From Notoacmeibacter ruber (GTDB lineage Bacteria; Pseudomonadota; Alphaproteobacteria; Rhizobiales; Rhizobiaceae): 64,000 bases of DNA. A program made the translations under genes and the position numbers. The notes below the pieces were generated by a model. The model saw only the letters and a program-made list of their open reading frames with translations. It was not told the DNA's origin and did no database searches. The stretch lies in assembly GCF_003668555.1 (NCBI RefSeq), contig NZ_RCWN01000001.1:2889501-2953500 (forward strand), written 5' to 3'. Position 1 is the first letter of the stretch. Each line of letters begins with the position of its first letter. This document shows, piece after piece, positions 3,570 to 44,200 of this stretch.

Positions 3570-5723
3570 ATGAAAATTGAACGGACCGGCCTGACGGCTG
3601 AAGACGCGATGATCCATTATCGCAAGGCAATGCTTCTTGGCTGCACCGCTCTAGCAGTGTTCATGCCGTTCCACGTCTGGGCTCAGGAGCAACCGGCAGG
3701 ACGTGTCACGACGCTTGAGACGATCACTGTCGAAACCCCTGACGAAGACGCCAGCGCCGGCTCTAACCGTGATACGCCCCTTGACGATGACGCCAATTCC
3801 ATCGTCGCAACACAGACGACCGGCGGCGGCAAACTACCGACTGATATTCTCGAGACCCCTGCCTCCATATCCGTCGTGACGGCAAAGGAACTGCAACGAC
3901 GCGATGCCGACAGCGTTGAAGAGGCCTTGAATTACACCGCTGGTGTCAACACGGACTTCTACAGCGGCGATGATCGGTTCGACTATTTCCGGATCCGCGG
4001 CTTTGATGCCTATCACTACCGCGATGGCCTCACACTTGGAGACCCGTTCGGCGGCCCGCGGGAGGAAATCTATGCTTATGAACGGATCGAGGTTCTGAAG
4101 GGCGCAAATTCCACGATCTTCGGCGTTTCCGATCCGGGCGGCTCGGTCAATTACGTGACCAAGTTGCCAAAGTCCGACCGGTTCGGGGAGGTTTACGTCT
4201 CCGGTGGCTCTTTCGACCACAAGGAGATCGGTATCGATTTCGGTGACAATATTACAAGCGACGATACGCTCTCTTTCCGTCTGATCGGCAAGTTGAAGGA
4301 CAGCGACAAGGAATACGACTATTCGCAGGATGACGAGATCTTCCTGATGGGCGGACTGACCTGGCGGCCGACCGACTACACCAGCCTCTCCGTTGTTTTC
4401 GATCACCTGGACACAGATGAAACGACCGCGAGCGGTTTTCCGATCGGTACGGATTTTGATCGCGACCGCTTCTTCGGCGAGCCGGATTTCAACTATCGCG
4501 GAGTGGAACGCGACACGCTGAGCGTGATGTTCGACCATGATTTCGGCAACGGACTCTCGGTCAGCTCCAATGCGCGCTATTCCAATCTCGACAGCGATTA
4601 CGGCTATGTCTACGTCGCCGCACCGCCTGCACCGGGCTCAACCGTCGTGGCCCGTGATTATATCGCCAATGAGAGCCCTGAGGAGAGCTTCATCATCGAC
4701 GCGCATGCGCGCTACGATGCCACCTTTGATTTCATTGAAAGCAGTACGATTGTCGGCGCGGAGTTCGGCACACTCGATAGTGAAACGGTCGGATATTACA
4801 CATCCGCTTCGCCGATCGATTACACCGATGTCCAGTATAGCGGCGCTCCCGCTTCGCTACCCGCTTACAGCGACACCGCCCGCGACCAGGAGACAAGAGC
4901 GGTCTACCTCCAGCAGAATGTGACGTTCGTCGACAGGCTGACCGCCTCTCTTGGTCTGCGACATGACTGGATCGATATCGATCAGACGAACCGGTTGACC
5001 GGTGAGGATACCGACGCGGAATTCGACGAACTCACCACACGTTTTGGTCTCTCCTACAAATTGACCGACGAGTTCGCCGTCTATGGCAGCTACGCGGAAT
5101 CGGTTGTTCCCGCTTCGCTGACCGTGGAGCCCGAGCGCGGCGAGCAATATGAGGTCGGCGTCAAATATCAGCCGGCGGCCTTCCCGGCGCTGCTCACGGC
5201 GTCCTTCTTCGATCTGACGAAATACAATATCACCCGCAACAACCCTGTCACTCTATTGCCGGAAACCACGGGCGAGGTACGGGTCCGCGGCCTCGAACTG
5301 GAAGCGAAGGCCGAACTGCCGCACAATTTCGATCTGACGGCGGCCTACAGCTATCTCGACACAGAGATCATCGAGAACGGCACGCTCGGCAATGAAGGCA
5401 ACAATCTGTCTCTGATTCCCGATCACCTGGCATCGCTTTGGCTCAACTACGAATTGGAAGGACAGGGCCGTCGCGGCGACCTCAATGTTGGCGTCGGAGC
5501 GCGTTATCTCGGTTCGGCTTTCTTCGACGATGCCAATACGAGCGAGGCCCAGGCCGCCGTCATTCTCGACGCCGCCCTGTCTTACGAGGTGGTCGACGAC
5601 ACCACGCTTCAGGTCAATGTCCGCAACATCCTGGATGAAAAGCACGTGACCTATGGCGGGTTCGGCGCGAACTTCTACAATCCGGGCCGCGAGATCACGG
5701 CGACGCTGCGCCGCACGTGGTAA
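3570..5723 (+). CDS. TonB-dependent siderophore receptor
   Basis: A 717-residue outer-membrane receptor. A signal peptide (about residues 18-38, ending VWAQ) is followed by a TonB box region (TLETITVE), a plug domain (TPASISVVTAKELQRRDADSVEEAL, then RIRGFD and VLKGANSTIFGVSDPGGSVNYVTK), and a long beta-barrel ending in an aromatic residue (TLRRTW), as outer-membrane proteins do. It imports ferric siderophore across the outer membrane using TonB energy and hands it to the divergent ABC importer. The ATG at 3570 has GGGA upstream; an ATG at 3609, just before the hydrophobic core, is the alternative. Confidence 0.94.
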   Translation: MKIERTGLTAEDAMIHYRKAMLLGCTALAVFMPFHVWAQEQPAGRVTTLETITVETPDEDASAGSNRDTPLDDDANSIVATQTTGGGKLPTDILETPASISVVTAKELQRRDADSVEEALNYTAGVNTDFYSGDDRFDYFRIRGFDAYHYRDGLTLGDPFGGPREEIYAYERIEVLKGANSTIFGVSDPGGSVNYVTKLPKSDRFGEVYVSGGSFDHKEIGIDFGDNITSDDTLSFRLIGKLKDSDKEYDYSQDDEIFLMGGLTWRPTDYTSLSVVFDHLDTDETTASGFPIGTDFDRDRFFGEPDFNYRGVERDTLSVMFDHDFGNGLSVSSNARYSNLDSDYGYVYVAAPPAPGSTVVARDYIANESPEESFIIDAHARYDATFDFIESSTIVGAEFGTLDSETVGYYTSASPIDYTDVQYSGAPASLPAYSDTARDQETRAVYLQQNVTFVDRLTASLGLRHDWIDIDQTNRLTGEDTDAEFDELTTRFGLSYKLTDEFAVYGSYAESVVPASLTVEPERGEQYEVGVKYQPAAFPALLTASFFDLTKYNITRNNPVTLLPETTGEVRVRGLELEAKAELPHNFDLTAAYSYLDTEIIENGTLGNEGNNLSLIPDHLASLWLNYELEGQGRRGDLNVGVGARYLGSAFFDDANTSEAQAAVILDAALSYEVVDDTTLQVNVRNILDEKHVTYGGFGANFYNPGREITATLRRTW

Positions 5724-5763
5724 GCTGTTCGAGGCTACCCGATACCGGGCAGGTGAGATGAGA

Positions 5764-6663
5764 CTAGTGCTCTCTCTTCTTCTGCGCCCGCCGCCACGCG
5801 GCGGGCGTTTCACCCACCGTCTGGCGAAAAGCATTGGTAAGGTGAGCCTGATCGGAAAAACCGAGCTGAGCGGCAATCACGGCGATCGTCAACTCGCTCG
5901 TCCGCAAGAAATCCTTGGCGCGGTCAATACGATTGGCCAACTGCCACTGCGAAGGTGTCTGGCCTGTCGTCTCCTTGAAGACAGTCGCAAACCAGCTTTC
6001 CGACAATCCGACCGTCTCCGCCATCTCGGCGACACTCAGCCGGTGGTCGCTCTGGGAATTAAGGCGACCGCAAAGCCTGTTCATCTGAGCTTGCGTCAAT
6101 CGGCCTTTCGCCTCTTTGCGCTCTTTTTCCGGCAAGTCCAGAAGCCCGGTCACGATACAGCCAACCAGGTTCTCGGCGTGGAGGGGATGGTGTCCCGGCC
6201 TTCGCAATTCCTCGACCAGCAGGCGTGCGAGCGCCTCGATGGCACTGACATCCTGAACTTCAGCCGGGCGCTGCAAAATGGCCTGAGAGGCCGCCCGCCC
6301 GAACGATGGCGACAGAAATCTTATGAGCCGGTCCCGGTGAAGATGAATGTCGAGATGAGAAAAGCGATGCGCTGAAGAGAAGCTTGTCCAGAGCGGCATG
6401 CCGGGGGGCACATAGATTGCCCGGCTCATGGGCCGGTAATGAGAAGAACTTACACCGGCGCTGCTCGCCATACCGATATGCGAGGAGATGTCGTTGAAAA
6501 AAAAGAGGATCCGGGGATCTGGAGAGAGATAGTAGCCGCGCGCGCCGGTTTCGCCTTCCGCGTCCCAGAAGACGCCAACAATACCGTCGAGGCTGCGCCA
6601 ATTGGCCGAACGTGTGGGCCGAATACCCTCTGTATGGGTCGTCATGGAATGCAGGAAGTTCAT
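5764..6663 (-). CDS. AraC-family transcriptional regulator of siderophore uptake
   Basis: About 299 residues. The C-terminal 100 form the double helix-turn-helix of the AraC family (LSVAEMAETVGLSESWFATVFKETTG, then LTIAVIAAQLGFSDQAHLTNAFRQTVG). The N-terminal part resembles no domain I can name but fits the ligand-binding half of PchR-like regulators, which sense ferri-siderophores. It lies tail-to-tail with the TonB receptor gene. A GTG at 6681 is an alternative start; neither start has a strong ribosome site. Function in this locus is inferred from position. Confidence 0.85.
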   Translation of the reverse strand: MNFLHSMTTHTEGIRPTRSANWRSLDGIVGVFWDAEGETGARGYYLSPDPRILFFFNDISSHIGMASSAGVSSSHYRPMSRAIYVPPGMPLWTSFSSAHRFSHLDIHLHRDRLIRFLSPSFGRAASQAILQRPAEVQDVSAIEALARLLVEELRRPGHHPLHAENLVGCIVTGLLDLPEKERKEAKGRLTQAQMNRLCGRLNSQSDHRLSVAEMAETVGLSESWFATVFKETTGQTPSQWQLANRIDRAKDFLRTSELTIAVIAAQLGFSDQAHLTNAFRQTVGETPAAWRRAQKKREH

Positions 6664-6681
6664 TCCGCTAACCGTGTGCAC

Positions 6682-6965: not shown

Positions 6966-7361
6966 TTAGCCTTGATAGTCCTCGTCGGAGACTTTCTCCA
7001 TCCAGGTGACGGGACTGCCGTCGATGCTCTCCTGGACGGCGATGTGGCTCATCGCTGTTTCGGGTGAGGCGCCGTGCCAGTGCTTCTCGCCGGCAGGAAA
7101 CCACACCACGTCACCTTGGCTGATTTCCTCCACCGGGCCGCCCTCGCGCTGGACGCGGCCGCGCCCGAAAGTGACGATCAGCGTCTGGCCGGCCGGATGG
7201 GTGTGCCAGGCGGTGCGGGCGCCAGGCTCGAAGGTCACCAGCGCTCCGCTCGTGCGGCCCGGCTCCTCGGCCTGGAACAGAGGGTCGATGCGCACAATGC
7301 CTGTGAAATACTCTTCCGGGCCGGGACCGGAGGGGTTGGTGCCCGAACGGGTGATTTTCAT
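6966..7361 (-). CDS. Cytoplasmic single-domain cupin
   Basis: A 131-residue cupin with both conserved metal-binding stretches: [16 protein letters not shown] (motif 1) and [14 protein letters not shown] (motif 2). There is no signal peptide. It is the last gene of a three-gene leftward set with the oxidoreductase and the carboxymuconolactone-decarboxylase-like protein. Its C-terminal VSDEDY recurs in the secreted cupin at 10188-10646, so the two are close paralogues in different compartments. Homologues are often annotated quercetin 2,3-dioxygenase-like; the substrate is unknown. A strong AAGGAG precedes the ATG. Confidence 0.85.
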
Positions 7362-7388: not shown

Positions 7389-8027
7389 TCAGTCGCGCAG
7401 CTTTTCGAAACGGTAGGTGAGTGCCGGTCCGCCGGGCTGGCCATAGGCCAGCTCCGCGGTGACCATGGCGAAGGGCTCGACGAAACGTGCGGTATGCAAC
7501 CCGCCTGCCTCCAGCGGTTCGAAACCGATGTCGCCGATCAGATCGTGTGCGATCGTCTTGGCCCCTGCATCGTCGCCATAGACGAGCAGGTGCGGTCGCG
7601 GGGTCCGGTCCTTCCGCGCGAAGACCCCGGCGAAACTCTCCGATGGGCTGGTGTTGAAGCACGACACCCAGCGGGCATCGGGGCGCATCTTCGCCAATTC
7701 CTCGGCACCGGAGGTGGTCGTGCCGACGACGAGGTTGGTGTTGGTCTCGTCGAGGGGAACGCAGCAATTCAGCACGACCTGTCCGGCGAGGTCGCCGGCC
7801 TGTTCCAGCACGTCGTCAATCCGCGACCAGTGAACTGCCAGCAGCACCGCATCGGCATCCTGCACGGCCTCGGCGACGGAGCCGCTGGCCGCATTCGCTT
7901 CACGGGCTACACGCTCCAGCTTCGCCGTGCTGCGCGCATAGGCGAAGGTCACGTCATGACCGCAGCGCGACCAAAGCGTGCCGAGCTTGGCGCCCATGAG
8001 CCCAGATCCCAGTATGCCGATTTTCAT
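7389..8027 (-). CDS. NAD(P)-binding oxidoreductase of the F420/NADP-reductase type
   Basis: A 212-residue Rossmann protein opening with GILGSGLMGAKLGTLW, the dinucleotide fingerprint. The strand-loop ADAVLLAVHW and the central NCCVPL and FNTSP segments are as in the NADPH-dependent F420 reductase-like family. Many bacterial members lack F420 and probably use NAD(P) with an unknown partner. Start: ATG after GGAAAGGAG. It sits between a secreted carboxymuconolactone-decarboxylase-like gene (upstream) and a cupin (downstream), with short gaps, so one transcript is likely. Confidence 0.82.
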   Translation of the reverse strand: MKIGILGSGLMGAKLGTLWSRCGHDVTFAYARSTAKLERVAREANAASGSVAEAVQDADAVLLAVHWSRIDDVLEQAGDLAGQVVLNCCVPLDETNTNLVVGTTTSGAEELAKMRPDARWVSCFNTSPSESFAGVFARKDRTPRPHLLVYGDDAGAKTIAHDLIGDIGFEPLEAGGLHTARFVEPFAMVTAELAYGQPGGPALTYRFEKLRD

Positions 8028-8070: not shown

Positions 8071-8832
8071 TTACTCGGTGCGGGCCTCAAAGACCTCTTT
8101 CGCCACCGGCAGGGCGGAAAACACTTTCGGCCAGCCTGTATAGAACGCCAGATGCGACAACATCGCTCCGGCCTCCTCCTGCGTCAGACCGTTATCCATC
8201 GCTCGGTTGAGGTGGAAGGTCATCTGCTCGGGCTGGCCGGCCGCGATCAGCGCGGCGACGGTGATGAGGCTGCGGTCGCGCGGCTCCAAATCCGGACGCA
8301 GCCACAGATCGCGGAACAGCAATTCGCGCGTATTGTCGACGACACCCATGCTGACATCGCCGAAATTGCCGCGCACATTCTCTTCGCGTTTAGCCTCGGC
8401 CTCTTCGTCCAGCGGCAGCAGTTCGGGATCGACGGCGGGCAGGTCGTCCGCGGTCACGCCGCGTTCGTCGAAGACGGGTGCAACGGCTCTTGCAGCGGCG
8501 GTGGCGTTGCCCCAGCCACTGTAAAAGGCAAGATGAGTAATGGTTTCGGAAATTTCCGCCGGCGTCACCCCGGCCTCAAGCGCAAGCGCTACGTGGTCGG
8601 CCAGATTGTCCGTCTCGTGCCGGGTCATCAGCGCGGCGAAAGTGACAAGCGCCCTGTCACGGGCGGAAAGCTCTTCGCCCTTCCAGACGGAGCTGAAGAG
8701 ATCGTCATTAGAATAGGATTCAAGCGCCGGGGCCACATGTCCTACGGCATCGGGCAAGGTGCGCGAAAGATCCTGTGCGGATGCGGTGGAAGCAGCGAAC
8801 GCCATGGCGGCGGTTGCGAGAAGGGGTTTCAT
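8071..8832 (-). CDS. Secreted carboxymuconolactone decarboxylase-like protein, two tandem domains
   Basis: A 253-residue protein with a signal peptide (LLATAAMAFAASTASAQ) and two repeats of the CMD/AhpD fold: residues about 55-115 (ARDRALVTFAALMTRHETDN ... ITHLAFYSGWGNA) and about 180-245 (PRDRSLITVAALIAAGQPEQ ... LSHLAFYTGWPKV). No cysteine is visible in either repeat, so the CxxC of AhpD-type peroxidase members is absent and a redox role through that motif is excluded. AAAGGAG precedes the ATG. Its promoter carries a perfect T-N11-A operator at 8915-8929. Substrate unknown. Confidence 0.88.
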   Translation of the reverse strand: MKPLLATAAMAFAASTASAQDLSRTLPDAVGHVAPALESYSNDDLFSSVWKGEELSARDRALVTFAALMTRHETDNLADHVALALEAGVTPAEISETITHLAFYSGWGNATAAARAVAPVFDERGVTADDLPAVDPELLPLDEEAEAKREENVRGNFGDVSMGVVDNTRELLFRDLWLRPDLEPRDRSLITVAALIAAGQPEQMTFHLNRAMDNGLTQEEAGAMLSHLAFYTGWPKVFSALPVAKEVFEARTE

Positions 8833-8914
8833 CGGGGAACTCCTTTGTTGCAGCGACCCGATCTATGTGGCGCATTACGGCCGGAATTTAATGGCTGGCC
8901 AGATCACCTCGCCC

Positions 8915-8929
8915 ATGAGCCCGACTCAT
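8915..8929. promoter_or_regulatory. LysR-type operator (ATGAG-N5-CTCAT), site A
   Basis: ATGAG-CCCGA-CTCAT is an interrupted dyad containing T-N11-A, the LysR-family core. It lies about 85-100 bases upstream of the carboxymuconolactone-decarboxylase-like gene and next to the 3' end of the lysR gene. The same arms and the same spacer length recur at 10772 and 11216. Confidence 0.65.
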
Positions 8930-8934
8930 AAATG

Positions 8935-9864
8935 TCAGCTCCGCTCGCGCAGCGCGTCCAGCACCACCTGAAAGGCCGAGGACGGGCGCAGCCGGCTTGG
9001 GTAGTAGAGATGAAAGCCTGCGAAATAGGGCGAATAGCTTTCCAGGCAGATTTGCAGCGCGCCGGAAGCGATATGCTCGGCGGCCAGCTGCTCGGGGACA
9101 AGCGCCAGACCCTGCCCGTCTTTCGCTGCGCGCAATACCAGATTGATCGTGTTGAAGCAGGCCTGGCCCTGCACCTTGACGCGGATTTCGTTGCCGTTCT
9201 CGTCCTCGAACTCCCAGGCATAGAGTGCGCCGTGGTTGCTGAGCCGCAGATTGATGCAACGGTGGTCGCCGAGCTCCTGTGGGGTCTGCGGCGTGCCGTT
9301 GGCCTTGAAATAGTCCGGCGCGCCGACGCAGATCATCCGCTCCTCCGGCCCGATCCGCATCGAGACCATGCCCTCGCTCACCTGGTCGCCGTAGCGCACG
9401 CCGGCATCGCATTGCGCGCTGGCAAGGTCGGTATAACCATAGTCGACGACGAACTCGACATTGACCGAGGGATAGGCCTTCAGTGCAGGAGAGAGCTTCG
9501 GCCAGAGCAGGGATTCGATCGCGTATTCGGTGGCGACGATCCGCACGGTACCCGTGGGCCGGTCGCGCGCCTCGTTGAGCGCCTCCAGCCGCGCCTCGAT
9601 CTTCTCGAAACACGGCGTGAGCGTAGCCAGCAGATCTTCCCCCTCCAGCGTCGGCGCGACGGAGCGGGTCGTGCGGGTCAGAAGCCGCAGGCCAAGCCGC
9701 TTTTCCAGCCCCTTGATTGTGTGGCTCAGCGCCGATTGCGAGACGTTGAGCCTGGCTGCGGCGCGAGTGAAACTGCGCTCCTCTGCCACCGTGGCCAGCG
9801 CGATCAGATCGATGATGTTTTCACGAAGCATGCGGGACGCCCTGATCTGCCGGTCGAGGATCAT
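8935..9864 (-). CDS. LysR-family transcriptional regulator of the cupin/CMD/SDR cluster
   Basis: A 309-residue LysR protein. The N-terminal winged helix-turn-helix (AEERSFTRAAARLNVSQSALSHTIKGLE) is followed by the co-inducer domain (TGTVRIVATEYAIESLLWP ...). The start at 9864 has GAGGG nine bases upstream; an ATG at 9831 is possible. It lies in the middle of the accessory cluster, and three promoters around it share an identical interrupted dyad, which makes it the probable local activator. The ligand is unknown; the sequence resembles regulators that sit next to SDR/aldo-keto reductase genes. Confidence 0.9.
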   Translation of the reverse strand: MILDRQIRASRMLRENIIDLIALATVAEERSFTRAAARLNVSQSALSHTIKGLEKRLGLRLLTRTTRSVAPTLEGEDLLATLTPCFEKIEARLEALNEARDRPTGTVRIVATEYAIESLLWPKLSPALKAYPSVNVEFVVDYGYTDLASAQCDAGVRYGDQVSEGMVSMRIGPEERMICVGAPDYFKANGTPQTPQELGDHRCINLRLSNHGALYAWEFEDENGNEIRVKVQGQACFNTINLVLRAAKDGQGLALVPEQLAAEHIASGALQICLESYSPYFAGFHLYYPSRLRPSSAFQVVLDALRERS

Positions 9865-10187
9865 GGTAGGTTTCCCTCACGATATATGCGTACGGCTCAT
9901 CAGTCCATGAACTGTGCAATCATGGCACCATCAGGATCAGGCGATCTTCCGAGGTCAGCCAGGTCGCGGATGCGTTCGCCCAAAGAGAAGGCGTCGAAGG
10001 CCGTGCCGCTGCTGGAAAGGGCCACGGCATCTTCATGCCCTCGCCGGTCTCGTCGCTTCGCCTAGTTGTCGCCGCCCGTCGGGATACGCGCGGCCCCTTC
10101 CTGCGGGGCTTTCGAGACGGCGGGCGCTCCCGCCGCTCGGTTCAGCCCATAGTGACGTAGAGCATCGCGTCCGGGCCGCGATCCCGT
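9865..10187. other. Intergenic stretch without a supportable gene
   Basis: The region holds the lysR promoter side (a loose GCTCAT...CATGAAC dyad near 9896-9911 that does not match the three clear operators) and short open stretches on the minus strand that continue in the frame of the cupin after its stop. The stretch ending at 9900 reads protein-like (GTAFDAFSLGERIRDLADLG) and might be the tail of a decayed gene, but it is too short to support a call. Confidence 0.3.
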
Positions 10188-10646
10188 TCACTGCGCATAA
10201 TCTTCGTCCGAAACCGGGTCGCCCCAGCTCACCGCTGAGCCGTCGATTGCCTCCTGGACGGCGAGATGCGTCACCGCGTGCTGATCGGTCGCGCCGTGCC
10301 AGTGATCGACATCAGCCGGAAACCAGATGACGTCACCGACATTCATGACCTGCTTCTCTTCGTCGCGGACCTGGTACCAGCCCGTCCCGGAGGTCACGAC
10401 GAGCCATTGCCCAACCGGGTGCTTATGCCAGTGCGAACGCGCCCCCGGCATGAAGGTGACGGAGCCGGCGTTGATATTGCCCATCCGGGCATCGAAGACG
10501 GGCTGGACGTAGACCGTGCCGGTAAACGTGTCGGCGCCGCCAACCCTGCCGGCGCGTTGCTCGGCGCTGGTGACTTCCGCGGTTTGTGCGAATGCGGCAG
10601 GCGCAGAAAGCGCCATAACGAGTGTTGTTGCGAGAATGCGTTTCAT
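10188..10646 (-). CDS. Secreted cupin-domain protein
   Basis: A 152-residue protein with a signal peptide (ILATTLVMALSAPAAFAQ) and a complete cupin: HWHKHPVGQWLVVTSGTG (motif 1) and DVIWFPADVDHWHG (motif 2), with histidines able to bind a metal. It is a paralogue of the cytoplasmic cupin at 6966-7361 and shares the terminal VSDEDY. Homologues are annotated as quercetin dioxygenase-like or carboxymuconolactone-associated cupins. AAAAAAGGAG precedes the ATG. A T-N11-A operator lies about 130 bases upstream, so it is probably in the regulon of the neighbouring LysR. Confidence 0.87.
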   Translation of the reverse strand: MKRILATTLVMALSAPAAFAQTAEVTSAEQRAGRVGGADTFTGTVYVQPVFDARMGNINAGSVTFMPGARSHWHKHPVGQWLVVTSGTGWYQVRDEEKQVMNVGDVIWFPADVDHWHGATDQHAVTHLAVQEAIDGSAVSWGDPVSDEDYAQ

Positions 10647-10771
10647 ATCGGGTCGTCTCCTTTTTTGATCGAGATGCGGCCTTCGCCGCCAGCGGCAGGG
10701 AACGGTGCCTCGCTCAGACTCAATTAGTGCGTGCCTTCCGTGCGATCATGATCGCTGGATGGGATACGTTC

Positions 10772-10786
10772 ATGAGACAGCCTCAT
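10772..10786. promoter_or_regulatory. LysR-type operator (ATGAG-N5-CTCAT), site B
   Basis: ATGAG-ACAGC-CTCAT, followed by GAGT, lies upstream of the secreted cupin gene. Arms and spacer length are identical to sites A and C. The inner TGAG-N5-CTCA is T-N11-A. Confidence 0.65.
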
Positions 10787-10942
10787 GAGTTGGAGCAGGT
10801 GGCGCTACCCAGAGTAGGACAACAAATTCGGCATTCATGAAGCCTTCTCGTGACTGCTCGCACGATTGAGAGCTTCGTTTGCTACAAACGTAACACCAGT
10901 TTGGGAGCGTGGAACATCCAGCCCGCAAGGAAAAGGTCATAG

Positions 10943-11185
10943 TCGGGATCGGCTTCTTCGGAGCTTCAGGACCGCGTTGATCGCCAACGAATCGGGGTTG
11001 TCGGTATATGCGGCTTCGCGGGCATAGTCCTGAGCGCCGTCTCCGCCGACCATGCCGATCTCTACGACGACGTCGGCATCATCTCGTTCGATAAGCTGCA
11101 ATCGTCTTCCGCACAGAGCCTTGCGGGACACCTCGCCAAGCCCAATCTCAAAGGCAGGCGGGCCCGGCCTACCGAATGCCCATGA
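10943..11185 (+). pseudogene. Remnant of an alpha/beta hydrolase (dienelactone-hydrolase type)
   Basis: An 80-codon open stretch with no good start, bounded by TAG and TGA. It reads DRVDRQRIGVVGICGFAGI near its beginning, which strongly recalls the nucleophile-elbow region of alpha/beta hydrolases of this type (family pattern roughly D-R-x-R-I-G-V-x-G-I-C-G-x-G-G). The sequence after the elbow diverges quickly, and neither the N-terminal half nor the C-terminal catalytic His region is recognisable nearby. I interpret it as a decayed gene that once lay between the cupin and the cyclophilin-like gene; coincidence cannot be excluded. Confidence 0.4.
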
Positions 11186-11208
11186 CACGAAGCCGGCGCA
11201 GTCACCGA

Positions 11209-11234
11209 CTCATTAATGAGCGTTGCTCATGAGT
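11209..11234. promoter_or_regulatory. LysR-type operator (ATGAG-N5-CTCAT), site C
   Basis: CTCATTAATGAG, a perfect palindrome, runs directly into a second dyad: ATGAG-CGTTG-CTCAT-GAGT. Its core at 11216-11230 matches sites A and B in arms and spacer. It lies about 90 bases before the cyclophilin-like gene and is the most elaborate of the three sites. Confidence 0.65.
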
Positions 11235-11319
11235 GATAGAGACACTCAACCGATTATCCTGCGCGCAATAGCGATTAGATTGGAAGCCAATCGAGCGGCA
11301 CGCGAATGGAGATTTCACA

Positions 11320-11769
11320 ATGACCGGGCGGAGCATGACGTTGACGATCGCTGCGGGGGCATTGGTTCTTTTGGCCGGTGCGGCGCCCTCGAATTCCCAG
11401 ACAGGAGAAACCGCCATGACCAAAATCCATGTCATTGTCGGCAATGAAACTCTGGAGGCGATGCTTGACGACACGCAGGTCGCGCGCGACTTCGCCTCGC
11501 TGCTGCCGCTCGACCTGACGCTGAGCGACTTTCACGCCACCGAAAAAGTCGCCGACCTGCCACGCAAGCTCGATATTGAAGGTGCGCCGGCAAGCTACAC
11601 GCCCAAAGCAGGGGATATCACGCACTACGCGCCGTGGGGCAATCTCGCGATTTTCTACAAGCCTTTCCAGGATTCCCGCGGCCTCGTGCGGCTTGGCGAA
11701 TTCAACGAACCGATGGATGCGTTGATCCAGGACAGCGCCTTTGCGGTCCGTATCGAACTGGCCGACTAA
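11320..11769 (+). CDS. Cyclophilin-like fold protein, probably secreted
   Basis: A 149-residue protein. Residues 34-148 match the small bacterial cyclophilin-like domain (family landmarks: ARDFASLLPLDLTLSDF, ADLPRKL, GDITHYAPWGNLAIFYKPF, SRGLVRLGEF). It should not be assumed to have prolyl isomerase activity. The first ATG (GGAG eight bases upstream) gives a signal peptide (LTIAAGALVLLAGAAPSNSQ). A second ATG at 11416 has its own AGGAG and would give the bare cytoplasmic domain, so two products are conceivable. It is followed by the SDR gene and preceded by the strongest T-N11-A operator. Confidence 0.85.
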   Translation: MTGRSMTLTIAAGALVLLAGAAPSNSQTGETAMTKIHVIVGNETLEAMLDDTQVARDFASLLPLDLTLSDFHATEKVADLPRKLDIEGAPASYTPKAGDITHYAPWGNLAIFYKPFQDSRGLVRLGEFNEPMDALIQDSAFAVRIELAD

Positions 11770-11856: not shown

Positions 11857-12609
11857 ATGACCAATAATATCACCGGCAAGACCGTCATCATCACCGGCGC
11901 TTCCTCAGGCATCGGCGAGGCGACGGCGAAACTGCTCGCATCAAAGGGAGCCAATGTGGTGCTCGGCGCGCGCCGTGGCGACAAGCTCAAACAGATCGCG
12001 GACGCGATAAAAAACAACGGCGGTCAAGCCGTCTGGCAGGAACTGGATGTGACCGACCCGTCGCAGAACGACGCGATCGTCGCGCTTGCCAAGGAAACCT
12101 ATGGCGGCGTTGATGCGATCTTCCTCAATGCCGGGCTGATGCCGAGTTCGCCCGTTTCCGCGCTCAAGACGGATGAGTGGAACCAGATGGTCGACGTCAA
12201 CGTCAAGGGCGTGCTGAACGGCGTAGCTGCGGTAATGCCGATCTTCACCGAGCAGAAATCGGGCCACATCCTCGCGGTTTCGTCCGTCGCAGGCCTCAAA
12301 AACTATGCCGGTGCGGCGGTTTATGGCGGCACCAAATGGTTCGTACGAAACTTCATGGAAGTGCTGCGTATGGAATCGGCCACTGAAGGCACCAATATCC
12401 GCACCGCGACGCTCTATCCTGCGGCGATCAACACCGAGTTACTCGACACGATCACCGACAAGCAGACCGCCGAGGGGATGCAGGGTCTTTACGATACCTA
12501 CGGCATCTCGCCCGACCGGATCGCTGATGTCGTCGCGTTTGCACTCGACATGCCGGAGGACACGACGGTGAACGAATTCACCGTGGGGCCGGCGAAACAG
12601 CCCTGGTAA
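11857..12609 (+). CDS. Short-chain dehydrogenase/reductase
   Basis: A 250-residue classical SDR: nucleotide-binding TGASSGIGEATA near residue 14, an NAG motif (FLNAGLMP), catalytic Ser in AVSSVAG and the YxxxK pair in YGGTKW. The TGASSGIG form with an arginine-rich patch (GARRGDK) favours NADP(H). Residues 235-250 (TVNEFTVGPAKQPW) resemble the YdfG/serine-dehydrogenase-like clade. A strong AAGGAG precedes the ATG. It probably shares a transcript with the cyclophilin-like gene 87 bases upstream. Substrate unknown. Confidence 0.9.
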   Translation: MTNNITGKTVIITGASSGIGEATAKLLASKGANVVLGARRGDKLKQIADAIKNNGGQAVWQELDVTDPSQNDAIVALAKETYGGVDAIFLNAGLMPSSPVSALKTDEWNQMVDVNVKGVLNGVAAVMPIFTEQKSGHILAVSSVAGLKNYAGAAVYGGTKWFVRNFMEVLRMESATEGTNIRTATLYPAAINTELLDTITDKQTAEGMQGLYDTYGISPDRIADVVAFALDMPEDTTVNEFTVGPAKQPW

Positions 12610-12867: not shown

Positions 12868-14370
12868 CTAGATGTCGAACTTGACGCCCTGGGCCAAAGG
12901 CAGCTCCGCCGAATAATTCACCGTATTGGTCTGCCGGCGCATATAGCCTTTCCAGGCGTCCGAACCGCTCTCGCGGCCACCACCGGTTTCCTTCTCGCCG
13001 CCGAATGCCCCGCCGATCTCCGCGCCCGACGGGCCGATATTGACATTGGCGATGCCGCAATCCGATCCGACAGCCGAGAGGAAGCTTTCCGCCTCGCGCA
13101 TGTTCAGCGTAAAGATGCACGACGACAGGCCCTGCGGAACGTCGTTCTGCATGGCGATCGCTTGTTCCAGAGTATCGTAGCCCATCACATAGATGATCGG
13201 GGCGAAGGTCTCTGTGCGGACAATATCGCTCTGGGCCGGCATCTCGGCGATCGCAGGTGCAACATAGGCGCCGCCATCGGGCACGTTGTCGGTGACAGCT
13301 TCGCCGCCATGCACGTGGGCTCCTTCCTCCTTGGCCGTCTTGAGCGCGGCCCGCATCTGCTCCCGCGCCTTCCCGTCGATCAGCGGGCCGACCAGGGTGC
13401 CCTCCTTACGGGGGTCGCCGACCGGCAGGGTCTGATAAGCCTTGGCGAGTTTGGCCACCAGATCCTCCCGGATCGACTCATGGGCAATCACCCGGCGAAG
13501 GCTGGTGCAGCGCTGGCCCGCCGTCCCCACGGCCGAGAAGACGATCGCGCGGACAGCCATGTCGATATCGGCGGACGGCGCGACGATCATCGCATTGTTG
13601 CCGCCAAGTTCCAGAATCGGCCGGCCCCAGCGCTCCATCACCTTCGGCCCGACGACGGAACCCATCCGCGTCGAACCCGTCGCGGAGAGGATGGGGACAT
13701 CTTTCGAAGCGACCAGCGCTTCGCCGATTTCCGCACCGCCGATCACCAGTTGCAGGAGACCGTCCGGCGCATCGTCGCCAAAGCGTTCGAGGGCGCGCTC
13801 CATGATCTTCATCGTCGCCATGGCTGTCAGCGGCGTTTTTTCGGACGGCTTCCAGATCACCGGGTCGCCGCAGATCAGCGCCAGCGCCGTGTTCCAGGAC
13901 CAGACGGCGACCGGGAAATTGAAGGCGGTGATGACCCCGCACGGGCCGAGCGGATGCCATGTCTCCATCATACGGTGGCCCGGCCGTTCCGATGCGATGG
14001 TCAGGCCGTAGAGCTGTCGCGACTGGCCCACGGCGAAATCGCAGATGTCGATCATCTCCTGTACTTCGCCGAGGCCTTCGGAAACGATCTTGCCGGCTTC
14101 CAGCGTGACCACCGCGCCGAGTTCTTCCTTCGCGTTGCGCAATTCCTCACCGAGCAGGCGGACGAGTTCCCCGCGGCGCGGCGCCGGCACTTCGCGCCAG
14201 GCGCGGAAGGCGTCCTGAGCTTTCGCGATGATCGCCGGCATCTCCTCCGGCCGCGTCTCCCTGACCTTTGCAACTTCGGTGCCGTCGATCGGCGAATGGA
14301 CCGAAAGCGTGCCGCCCGTCAGTTCGGCTTCGGTCAGTCCGGCTGCTGTGAGAACGTTCCGGTGGCTCAT
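12868..14370 (-). CDS. amaB: Aldehyde dehydrogenase of the ALDH7 type (piperideine-6-carboxylate / aminoadipate semialdehyde dehydrogenase)
   Basis: A 500-residue aldehyde dehydrogenase with the catalytic Cys in GTAGQRCTSLRR and the general-base Glu in LELGGNN. The GEKETGGGRESGSDAWK block near residue 465 is characteristic of the ALDH7/AmaB branch that oxidises 2-aminoadipate 6-semialdehyde (in equilibrium with piperideine-6-carboxylate) to 2-aminoadipate. It is the last gene of the lysine operon, overlapping the FabD-like gene by ATGA, with AAAGGAG before the start. Its substrate is the product of the lysine dehydrogenase at the other end of the operon. Confidence 0.92.
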   Translation of the reverse strand: MSHRNVLTAAGLTEAELTGGTLSVHSPIDGTEVAKVRETRPEEMPAIIAKAQDAFRAWREVPAPRRGELVRLLGEELRNAKEELGAVVTLEAGKIVSEGLGEVQEMIDICDFAVGQSRQLYGLTIASERPGHRMMETWHPLGPCGVITAFNFPVAVWSWNTALALICGDPVIWKPSEKTPLTAMATMKIMERALERFGDDAPDGLLQLVIGGAEIGEALVASKDVPILSATGSTRMGSVVGPKVMERWGRPILELGGNNAMIVAPSADIDMAVRAIVFSAVGTAGQRCTSLRRVIAHESIREDLVAKLAKAYQTLPVGDPRKEGTLVGPLIDGKAREQMRAALKTAKEEGAHVHGGEAVTDNVPDGGAYVAPAIAEMPAQSDIVRTETFAPIIYVMGYDTLEQAIAMQNDVPQGLSSCIFTLNMREAESFLSAVGSDCGIANVNIGPSGAEIGGAFGGEKETGGGRESGSDAWKGYMRRQTNTVNYSAELPLAQGVKFDI

Positions 14371-32058: not shown

Positions 32059-34947
32059 TTATTCAGCCGCCTGAATGATGCGCCGCGCCGCGCCGGAGTG
32101 TTCGGCATAGTCCTCCTGCCATTCCGAAGGACCGTTGGACGGCGCGACCTGCACGGCCGTCACCTTATACTCCGGACAGTTCGTCGCCCAGTCCGAATTG
32201 TCGGTGGTGACGACATTGGCCTGCGTATCGGGGTGATGGAAGGTCGTATAGACGACACCCGGCGACACGCGGTCGGTGATCGTGGCGCGCAAGGTCGTTT
32301 CGCCCGACCGTGAGGCGAGGCGTACCCAGTCGCCCTCGCGAATGCCGCGATTTTCTGCATCGTGCGGATGGACCTCGAGCACGTCCTGATCGTGCCAGAC
32401 CGTATTGGCCGTGCGACGGGTCTGGGCACCGACATTGTATTGCGACAGAATGCGGCCCGTCGTCAGCAAAAGCGGGAAGCGCGGCCCGGTCTTCTCTTCG
32501 GTCGCGACATAATCGGTACGGATGAAGCGCCCCTTCCCGCGCACGAAACCCTCGACATGCATCATCGGCGTGCCATGCGGATGCGCTTCGTTGCAGGGCC
32601 ACTGCACCGAGCCTTGCTCTTCGAGCAGATCGTAGGTGACGCCGGTGAAGGATGGCGTGGTGGCCGCAATCTCCGCCATGATCTCGCGAGGATGGCTATA
32701 GGTCCAGTTCGCGCCCATCGCGTTGGCGAGCATCTGCGTGATTTCCCAATCGGCATAATCGGCCTTGGGCGCCATCACCTTGCGGACGCGGTTGATACGC
32801 CGCTCGGCATTGGTAAAGGTCCCGTCCTTTTCCAGGAAGGATGAGCCCGGCAGAAAGACGTGCGCATAGTTCGAGGTCTCGTTCAGGAAAAGATCGTGGA
32901 CGATCACGCAGTCCATCGCCGACAGGGCGGCAACGACATGCTTCGTGTCCGGGTCCGACTGGACGATATCCTCGCCCTGGCAGTAGAGCCCGCCGAACGA
33001 CCCCTCGAGCGCTGCGTCAAACATGTTCGGGATGCGAAGGCCCGGCTCGGAATCGATTTCGACGCCCCATGTCTCTTCGAAAATCGCCCGCACGTCTGCA
33101 TTCTTCACATGGCGATAGCCGGGAAGTTCGTGCGGGAAGGATCCCATATCGCAGGAGCCCTGAACATTGTTCTGGCCGCGCAGGGGATTCACGCCAGCGC
33201 CCACCTTGCCGACATTGCCGGTCAGCATGGCGAGATTGGCGATGCCGATGACGGTGGTCGAACCTTGACTGTGCTCGGTGACGCCAAGACCGTAATAGAT
33301 CGCGGCATTGCCGCCCGTCGCATAAAGTCGCGCTGCGGCCCGCAAGTCCTCGGCGGGCACGCCCGTCAGCGCTTCGACGGCCTCCGGTGAATGGCGGGGA
33401 TCACGCACGAATTCGACATAATCGGCAAACGCGTCGCTTTCGCAACGCTCATCAATATAGGCCTGATACTGCAGCCCCTCTGTCACGATTACATGCGCCA
33501 TGGCGGTGACGACGGCGACATTGGTTCCCGGTAGAAGCGGCAGATGATGGGCGGCTTTCACATGGGGCGTTTTGACCAGATCGATGCGCCGCGGATCGAT
33601 GACGATCAGTTTGGCGCCCTGCCGAAGGCGCTTCTTCAGCCGGCTTGCAAAAACCGGATGGCCGTCGGTGGGATTGGCGCCGATGACGAGCACCACATCG
33701 GCTTTTTCCACGGAATCGAAGTCTTGGGTGCCGGCGGAAGTGCCATAGGTCTGGCCGAGGCCATAACCCGTTGGCGAATGGCAGACACGGGCGCAGGTGT
33801 CGGTGTTGTTATTGCCGAAAACAGCCCGTGTGAGTTTCTGAACGAGGAAGGTCTCCTCATTGGTGCACCGGCTGGAGGTGATGACGCCAATGGAGCGGCG
33901 GCCTTTCTCTTCCTGAACCGATTTCAGGCGGTCGGCGGCGAATGAGAGGGCCTCCTCCCACGAGACTTCGCGCCATGGCTCGTCGATGCTGTCACGGATC
34001 ATAGGTGAGAGAATGCGATCCTTGTGTTCCGCATAGCCATAGGCGAAGCGGCCCTTCACACAGCTATGGCCGCGATTGGCCTTGCCATCCTTGTAAGGCA
34101 CCATGCGGACCAGTTCGTCGCCGCGCATCTGCGCTTCGAAGGAGCAGCCGACGCCGCAATAGGCGCAGGTCGTCACGACGCTGCGTTCCGGCGTGCCGCT
34201 CTCGACGACGCTTTTCTCGACCAGCGTGGCTGTCGGGCAGGCCTGCACGCAGGCGCCGCAGGAGACGCATTCGGATGAAAGAAAATCGTCAAACGAAGCG
34301 CCGGCGGAAACGCGGCTGTCCCAGCCCCGCCCGGCGATGGTCAGCGCGAAAGTGCCCTGCACCTCTTCGCAGGCCCGAACGCAGCGCGAGCAGACGATGC
34401 ATTTGCTGGGATCGTAATCGAAATAGGGGTTGGACTGATCTTTGGGTAGATAGAAGGGGTTATGCTCACCCGCGTTGTTGCGGACTGCGAAGTGACTATC
34501 CTTCTCTGCGATCGTGTCGTAGCGGACATCTCGGAGGCCGACCGCGCCGGCCATATCCTGCAATTCGCAGTCGCCATTGGCGGCGCAGGTCAGGCAGTCG
34601 AGCGGATGATCGGAGATATAGAGCTCCATCACGCCCTTGCGCAGTTTCTTCAATCGGTCGGTCTGGGTCTTGACCACCATGCCTTCGGCCACCGGCGTGG
34701 TGCAGGATGCCGGGGTGCCGGGTCGGCCCTCGACTTCGACCAGACAGAGACGGCAGGAGCCGAAAGCGTCGAGCATATCGGTGGCGCAGAGCTTCGGAAC
34801 CTTGATATCCGCTTCGGACGCTGCGCGCATGATGGACGTGCCGGCGGGAACCGAAACAGGCATTCCGTCCACGGTGAGCGTCACCATGGTCTCGGCCTCG
34901 ACGGCCTTTGTGCCGCGATCTTCGGTGAGCGAAAGAGGAATGGTCAT
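32059..34947 (-). CDS. fdsA: NAD-dependent formate dehydrogenase, molybdenum catalytic subunit alpha
   Basis: A 962-residue subunit: N-terminal 2Fe-2S domain (FGSCRLCLVEVEG), His/Cys cluster domain (HPLDCLTCAANGDCELQD), two 4Fe-4S clusters (CIVCSRCVRACEEVQG, CVSCGACVQACPTATL), the NapA-type cluster (CAYCGVGCSFEAQ) and the bis-molybdopterin domain. The active-site metal ligand is cysteine (CARVCHSPTGYG), not selenocysteine. C-terminal molybdopterin-binding domain follows. It oxidises formate to CO2 and passes electrons to FdsB for NAD. ATGA overlap with fdsB. Confidence 0.95.
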   Translation of the reverse strand: MTIPLSLTEDRGTKAVEAETMVTLTVDGMPVSVPAGTSIMRAASEADIKVPKLCATDMLDAFGSCRLCLVEVEGRPGTPASCTTPVAEGMVVKTQTDRLKKLRKGVMELYISDHPLDCLTCAANGDCELQDMAGAVGLRDVRYDTIAEKDSHFAVRNNAGEHNPFYLPKDQSNPYFDYDPSKCIVCSRCVRACEEVQGTFALTIAGRGWDSRVSAGASFDDFLSSECVSCGACVQACPTATLVEKSVVESGTPERSVVTTCAYCGVGCSFEAQMRGDELVRMVPYKDGKANRGHSCVKGRFAYGYAEHKDRILSPMIRDSIDEPWREVSWEEALSFAADRLKSVQEEKGRRSIGVITSSRCTNEETFLVQKLTRAVFGNNNTDTCARVCHSPTGYGLGQTYGTSAGTQDFDSVEKADVVLVIGANPTDGHPVFASRLKKRLRQGAKLIVIDPRRIDLVKTPHVKAAHHLPLLPGTNVAVVTAMAHVIVTEGLQYQAYIDERCESDAFADYVEFVRDPRHSPEAVEALTGVPAEDLRAAARLYATGGNAAIYYGLGVTEHSQGSTTVIGIANLAMLTGNVGKVGAGVNPLRGQNNVQGSCDMGSFPHELPGYRHVKNADVRAIFEETWGVEIDSEPGLRIPNMFDAALEGSFGGLYCQGEDIVQSDPDTKHVVAALSAMDCVIVHDLFLNETSNYAHVFLPGSSFLEKDGTFTNAERRINRVRKVMAPKADYADWEITQMLANAMGANWTYSHPREIMAEIAATTPSFTGVTYDLLEEQGSVQWPCNEAHPHGTPMMHVEGFVRGKGRFIRTDYVATEEKTGPRFPLLLTTGRILSQYNVGAQTRRTANTVWHDQDVLEVHPHDAENRGIREGDWVRLASRSGETTLRATITDRVSPGVVYTTFHHPDTQANVVTTDNSDWATNCPEYKVTAVQVAPSNGPSEWQEDYAEHSGAARRIIQAAE

Positions 34948-42284: not shown

Positions 42285-42448
<164 letters not shown>

Positions 42449-42498
42449 GAAACTTAAATCGGGGTTTGGCAGGCCGGAGTCAAGCTCCGGCCTTCCGT

Positions 42499-43860: not shown

Positions 43861-44063
43861 TTCCGTATCAAGCCTGAGAGTTTCGCATGAAGCCGGCCCT
43901 ATGCCGGTTTCCGCTTGCTCCTTCGGCGGGCCGGATACTCATTTCCGACCACTCTTCGGAGTGCTGCCTGTTGCCACACGGTCCCGTTGCCTGAGAGTTT
44001 CCGGGGGCGGTTGCTCCTTCGGCGCCGGTCTTCTCACCGCAATGATTGACCGATCTCTCCCGC
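43861..44063 (-). promoter_or_regulatory. Tandem glycine riboswitch upstream of dadA
   Basis: Two aptamers of the gcvT type lie in series on the minus strand. The first has GGGAGAGA at 44063 inward, CGCCGAAGGAGCAA and GGAAACTCTCAGGCAA; the second has GCCGAAGGAGCAAGC and GAAACTCTCAGGCTT. The last conserved block ends about 45 bases before the dadA start. Glycine riboswitches usually switch on glycine-use genes. Confidence 0.93.
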
Positions 44064-44200
44064 ATGGCAGGTTTGGTGCTACTGGAACGAGAGATGCAAT
44101 GCGAGCGTCTCTGCCAAAAGCCCACTAATTGTGACGTGTTTTGACGATGCTGGCAAGGTGATGCCGGCGCCTCTCCCGCAATGCGATCTTCAACTATGGT
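44064..44200. other. Gap between glycine riboswitch and DUF1636 gene
   Basis: The promoter of the riboswitch-dadA transcript must lie here. I see no gene, repeat or obvious terminator. Confidence 0.3.

Follow-up and report, generated by a model that had tools for sequence, protein, structure and literature searches.

Do the genes scattered around a lysR gene in Notoacmeibacter ruber answer to one regulator, and through which operator? An earlier note on this DNA had pointed to three identical copies of ATGAG-N5-CTCAT in promoter gaps and had read TGAG-N5-CTCA as the T-N11-A core of LysR operators. Both observations hold, and we followed them through the whole stretch of 64,000 nucleotides (the window), the source genome, related genomes and orthologous lysR loci. 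The best explanation of the whole, and a very likely one on sequence grounds, is a LysR regulon with a predicted operator at four promoters.

Genes of the lysR cluster

The putative regulator is a LysR-type protein of 309 aa (8935..9864, minus strand) with an N-terminal HTH_1 domain (PF00126, 74.4 bits) and a C-terminal LysR_substrate domain (PF03466, 115 bits), both over cut-off. Beside it, also on the minus strand, lie genes for a two-domain CMD-family protein (8071..8832; best solved relative 4g9q), an F420-dependent-reductase-like NAD(P)-binding protein (7389..8027; PF03807) and a 131-aa cupin without an evident signal peptide (6966..7361), which in this order probably form a three-gene operon. 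The closest solved structures to the reductase-like protein, by sequence, are STEAP4 and FNO. The 253-aa translation of the CMD protein contains no cysteine and hence lacks the CXXC motif of AhpD/RclX-type peroxidases. Its assignment as the 4-carboxymuconolactone decarboxylase PcaC was rejected (TIGR02425, 101.2 bits, below the cut-off of 155.7).

On the other side of lysR are a larger cupin of 152 aa, predicted to be secreted (10188..10646, minus strand), and a plus-strand pair encoding a cyclophilin-like (Cyclophil_like2) protein (11320..11769; PF18050) and an SDR oxidoreductase (11857..12609; PF00106). Both cupins are predicted to be of the (R)-mandelonitrile lyase type, scoring 196.6 bits (131 aa) and 156.8 bits (152 aa) against the NF049940 cut-off of 140, and both have 4bif as their closest solved structure. 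A sequence search found no solved structural relative of the cyclophilin-like protein. The signal peptides assigned to the CMD protein, to the larger cupin and to the cyclophilin-like protein come from inspection by eye rather than from computation. The divergent gap between the larger cupin and the cyclophilin-like gene also holds a short relic of an alpha/beta hydrolase gene (10964..11050, plus strand; 29 aa, 52% identity, E 1e-4). The match is to a neighbour of an orthologous lysR in Agrobacterium; in this genus and in Roseibium, similar hydrolase genes occur near orthologous lysR.

Adjoining the SDR gene is a gene for L-piperidine-6-carboxylate dehydrogenase (12868-14370, minus strand; 814 bits, cut-off 730), and a TonB-dependent siderophore-type receptor and an AraC-type regulator (3570-6681) flank the cluster. 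The window scan at up to one mismatch found no operator at the dehydrogenase gene and none upstream of the receptor and AraC-type genes. Elsewhere in the window, an FMN riboswitch (42288-42452, minus strand; 115.2 bits) and a Glycine riboswitch (43969-44072, minus strand; 65.4 bits) exceed their Rfam gathering scores.

Predicted operator sites in the window

A whole-window scan finds exact ATGAG-N5-CTCAT at three places only. Operator 1 (8915..8929; ATGAGCCCGACTCAT; no strand is assigned to this or any other site) is the one exact site in the lysR-CMD gap (8833-8934), with its centre 90 bp upstream of the CMD start codon; relatives carry a site in the equivalent gap too. The divergent 673-bp gap (10647-11319) holds the other two. 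Operator 3 (10772..10786; ATGAGACAGCCTCAT) lies upstream of the larger cupin, its centre 133 bp from the start, and operator 4 (11216..11230; ATGAGCGTTGCTCAT) upstream of the cyclophilin-like/SDR pair, its centre 97 bp from the start. In 100 dinucleotide shuffles of the window the exact core appeared 0.04 times on average and at most once, against three observed.

Two further sites depart from the exact core. Operator 2 (9886..9900; ATGCGTACGGCTCAT), which reads ATGCG-TACGG-CTCAT, sits 22 bp upstream of lysR and abuts a conserved CATATAT; it is degenerate, with five mismatches to the 21-bp operator described below. A weak secondary operator-like site (10834..10854; three mismatches to the 21-bp operator) lies further upstream of the larger cupin. 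The scan at up to one mismatch gave five sites against a shuffle mean of 2.05, and 4 of 100 shuffles reached five, so this count is by itself near chance and unremarkable. The site before lysR therefore rests on its conservation in relatives. A lone one-mismatch core match at 33942-33956 is within chance expectation.

The earlier list of sites and genes was thus right about the three exact sites and missed those at 9886-9900 and 10834-10854, the F420-reductase-like gene and the second cupin. A regulon larger than earlier stated is supported, with lysR, the CMD gene, the F420-reductase-like gene, both cupins, the cyclophilin-like gene and the SDR gene as its predicted members.

Conservation in orthologous lysR loci

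The footprinting set comprised 37 promoter gaps (7,669 bp) from 14 other non-redundant loci whose lysR is 70-88% identical; the window itself was excluded. All 5-base arms were ranked with spacers of 0-12, or 13,312 arm/spacer combinations. ATGAG-N5 came joint first with CATGA-N7, each with 25 near-matches against a mean over all arms of 0.28 (sd 0.80), and TCATG-N9 came third; as the 14 loci are related, these matches are not independent events. CATGA-N7 and TCATG-N9 are extensions of ATGAG-N5, which points to one palindrome, and the full operator is predicted to be about TCATGAG-N5-CTCATGA. Five hundred dinucleotide shuffles of the gaps gave ATGAG-N5 a mean of 0.28 and a maximum of 3, and the best of any arm in 8 gap shuffles was 8. 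Near-matches are also 63-fold denser in the gaps (26 in 7,669 bases) than in the rest of the same loci (10 in 184,705 bases).

Position is conserved along with sequence. Alignment of the CMD gap in 14 sequences gives a mean column identity of 29%; within the operator core, some stretches of columns show little or no variation. At up to one mismatch the site is present in the CMD gap of 8 of 11 loci (two mismatches in the remaining three) and in the cyclophilin-like gap of 6 of 10. Measured from the CMD start, seven of these eight sites begin between -98 and -105; all six in the cyclophilin-like gaps begin between -93 and -114 of that gene. All three larger-cupin gaps have a site at this threshold, one at -281 and one being that locus's cyclophilin-like site. 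At the lysR promoter, 7 of 14 loci have a site within one mismatch, at -19 to -49, and 12 within two; two have none. The motif is thus kept in the equivalent gaps of orthologous loci, the lysR promoter included, in line with the single predicted LysR regulon of the earlier note. The LysR-regulon reading is strongly supported by this sequence evidence.

Six of the 10 near-matches outside the gaps precede other genes: RibD_C/MFS genes in Roseibium (one) and Rhodobium (two), an MFS gene in Martelella (one), an aldo/keto reductase gene in Donghicola (one) and a (2Fe-2S)/molybdo-oxidase pair in Celeribacter indicus (one). The remaining four fall further upstream within gaps: two in that of Donghicola lysR, one in the Breoghania gap that separates lysR from the cupin gene, and one in front of the Celeribacter indicus cupin.

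Among 28 more distant loci (LysR at least 40% identical), ATGAG-N5 ranked second of 13,312 with 11 matches in 9 loci; a GC-rich arm came first, with 12 matches. Four of the 11 overlap the lysR start region, where the ATG could be that of the gene itself, which makes the distant set weaker evidence. A shift in specificity in diverged orthologs (ATTAG-N5 type) was considered and dropped, the variant being exact in 1 of 16 loci.

That a short palindrome of this kind recurs by chance has next to no credibility. Two further exact places in the genome and the near-chance one-mismatch counts in the window speak for it; the window shuffles, the 37-gap ranking, the gap density and the gap shuffles all contradict it.

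Rarity of the operator in the genome and in relatives

A motif common across the genome outside promoters, which the earlier note had named as counting against its proposal, is not what a genome scan finds. The exact core occurs at five places in 3.25 Mb, three of them in the cluster, and the reversed-pattern control at none. Of the two outside, C1:1333412 falls within an ORF judged NtrC-like on inspection and, as a regulon extension, was set down to chance. The other, at C1:2449527, has a thiE-like gene on one side and a purU-like gene on the other (both named by eye); it lies about 150 bp upstream of the likely purU start and lacks the outer arms. It too was taken as chance, being core-only and with the exact core absent genome-wide from a same-genus genome (G001). 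With the 21-bp pattern at up to three mismatches, this genome yields 12 places and the reversed control 1. Of the 12, 4 are in the cluster and 8 outside; the lysR site, with its five mismatches, is not among them. Two of the eight outside places were inspected as extensions of the regulon and both were rejected: C1:1333412, and C1:1189242, a one-mismatch match that was likewise ascribed to chance, as the ORF around it looks on inspection like one for a penicillin-binding protein.

Across 20 related genomes (about 102 Mb, from rounded sizes) there are 23 exact places, or about 0.23 per Mb, a density at which three within 2,316 bp are far outside chance. The reversed control gave 7. Orthologous lysR loci account for only 4 of the 23, the other 19 lying elsewhere, and this roughly threefold excess, mostly off lysR loci, suggests that other regulators may use the core. 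Together with the T-N11-A cores common to LysR-type regulators, it also speaks for the sites belonging to another regulator, such as a paralogous LysR encoded elsewhere, with lysR a mere passenger. We consider this improbable. The sites track lysR orthologs across genera and plasmids, and lysR's own promoter carries one within two mismatches in most of the close loci. The lysR/cupin locus also holds every exact site of two related genomes (2 of 2 in G004, 1 of 1 in G053), and exact sites occur at the lysR/cupin loci of three orthologs with 50-57% identity.

Putative promoters and a proposed mechanism

The conserved block of the 14-sequence CMD gap alignment suggests a -35-like element, CATTAA (8888..8893, minus strand), and a -10-like element, CCAnAT, here CCACAT (8865..8870, minus strand), 17 bp apart. 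Scans found no sigma-70 consensus promoter and no terminator. LysR proteins usually activate from a site about 65 bp upstream of the transcription start. If CATTAA/CCAnAT is the CMD promoter, the operator centre lies about 64 bp upstream of that start, a distance that would match the usual activating position.

We infer from the sequence LysR as the binder, the direction of regulation, the operon structure and the transcription starts. In the mechanism we propose, LysR (8935-9864) would bind the palindrome of about TCATGAG-N5-CTCATGA at the four promoters. In the presence of an inducer, it would activate the CMD/F420-reductase-like/cupin operon, from an operator roughly 65 bp upstream of the putative start, as well as the larger cupin gene and the cyclophilin-like/SDR pair. 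It would repress its own gene via the degenerate site on the lysR promoter; the abutment of this site on CATATAT fits such autorepression. A site on its own promoter, as expected of an autoregulated lysR, is present as sequence and, within two mismatches, kept in position in 12 of 14 loci. Thus, lysR and the surrounding detoxification-type genes very probably switch on together, and in kind the system is an ordinary local LysR regulon. The operator is a well-supported prediction for a LysR subfamily of several alphaproteobacterial genera and plasmids. The motif also offers a way to define the regulon of poorly understood families, namely PF18050 cyclophilin-like proteins, mandelonitrile-lyase-type cupins and two-domain CMD proteins.

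Probable horizontal transfer of the cluster

In a search of 120 related genomes, its own not counted, the best LysR identity is 57%, and two same-genus genomes lack a match at E 1e-40. Identity nonetheless reaches 70-88% at 12 loci in other genera and 75-83% on plasmids of Celeribacter, Salipiger and Thioclava (five records). This distance in relatives and closeness in other genera and plasmids suggest that the lysR cluster moved by horizontal transfer. On a Celeribacter plasmid (L069, 6118-8009), the cyclophilin-like gene is separated from the cupin gene by IS5 and IS110 transposases, a sign of mobility at that locus. Annotated plasmids of enteric and beta-proteobacteria have parts lists that resemble the cluster. 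By annotation, an E. coli plasmid carries cyclophilin-like/cupin/CMD/LysR, Pantoea cupin/CMD/flavodoxin/AKR/LysR and Achromobacter cyclophilin-like/two cupins/CMD/LysR.

Candidate functions of the regulon

The purpose, which the earlier note had called unknown, can be narrowed by inference to redox/carbonyl detoxification. The reading that we tentatively favour, while giving it less than an even chance, is a mobile, inducible module for the detoxification of reactive carbonyls or similar electrophiles, a purpose read entirely from gene families. The CMD protein, the larger cupin and the cyclophilin-like protein would be its exported part, and the SDR, the NAD(P)-binding protein and the 131-aa cupin its cytoplasmic redox part. 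In 15 loci, tblastn with chosen neighbour proteins found aldo/keto reductases in 6, Zn-alcohol dehydrogenases in 4, molybdo-oxidases in 2 and an MFS exporter in 4; the recurrence of the first three nearby suggests a carbonyl-redox theme.

A broader version is more speculative still. The cluster could represent an alphaproteobacterial stress regulon, unrecognised so far, that moves horizontally and sets the exported trio and interchangeable cytoplasmic oxidoreductases against carbonyls or oxidants. As part of the same conjecture, plug-in genes (aldo/keto reductase, molybdo-oxidase, MFS exporter) would join by gaining the 19-21 bp operator.

A response to reactive chlorine (HOCl/chlorite) is unlikely. 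Chlorite dismutase is linked to a cupin of 131 aa (mean), an SDR and two LysR subfamilies according to PMC9751292, and the smaller cupin of the window equals that mean, a likeness of length only. In P. aeruginosa, according to PMC7950407, both an AhpD-like protein and the LysR-type regulator MexT matter in the response to HOCl. Against this, the source genome has no chlorite dismutase (PF06778) match, the cysteine-free CMD protein lacks the CXXC peroxidase motif, and an Ideonella dechloratans cupin locus has no annotated chlorite dismutase in 18 kb, in a gene table that is incomplete.

Catabolism of an aromatic compound, induced by its substrate, with the CMD protein as decarboxylase and a cupin as a dioxygenase-like enzyme, appears less likely again. 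CMD-family proteins and cupin folds are known in such pathways, and some relatives degrade hydrocarbons, Celeribacter indicus P73 being one. The CMD protein, however, stays at 101.2 bits against the PcaC cut-off of 155.7. Both cupins pass the mandelonitrile-lyase model, and the larger one reaches 19.6 bits for gentisate dioxygenase (cut-off 442.1). Moreover, the by-eye signal peptides on three products misfit a cytoplasmic ring-cleavage pathway. Detoxification of reactive carbonyls or electrophiles is favoured over both of these readings.

Comparison with known systems

Among the matches listed in a literature search, neither the cluster nor the operator is described in titles or the beginnings of abstracts. 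An occurrence of TCATGAG in PMC9019972 was discarded as part of a primer.

The chlorite dismutase-linked cupin/SDR/LysR neighbourhoods (PMC9751292) share a parts list of 131-aa cupin, SDR and LysR with the cluster, which differs in having no chlorite dismutase match and a cupin likeness of length only. In the HOCl response of P. aeruginosa (RclR-RclX), an AhpD-like product has an activator of its own, as proposed here; this RclR is a homologue of the E. coli one, and RclX has a CXXC (both as given in PMC7950407), in contrast to the CMD protein with no cysteine. The closest solved sequence to our LysR is PDB 3hhg, which we take to be CrgA, a distant relative despite a near full-length alignment (98.1 bits). 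E. coli RclR is an AraC-type regulator, not LysR.

A further likeness is to LysR-type regulators with palindromic T-N11-A operators. As in these, HTH_1 and LysR_substrate domains go together with a T-N11-A core, a site that would lie near -65 of the putative CMD promoter and another on the regulator's own promoter. The present system differs from them in having four predicted sites, one before a co-directional downstream operon, and an operator that extends to TCATGAG-N5-CTCATGA.
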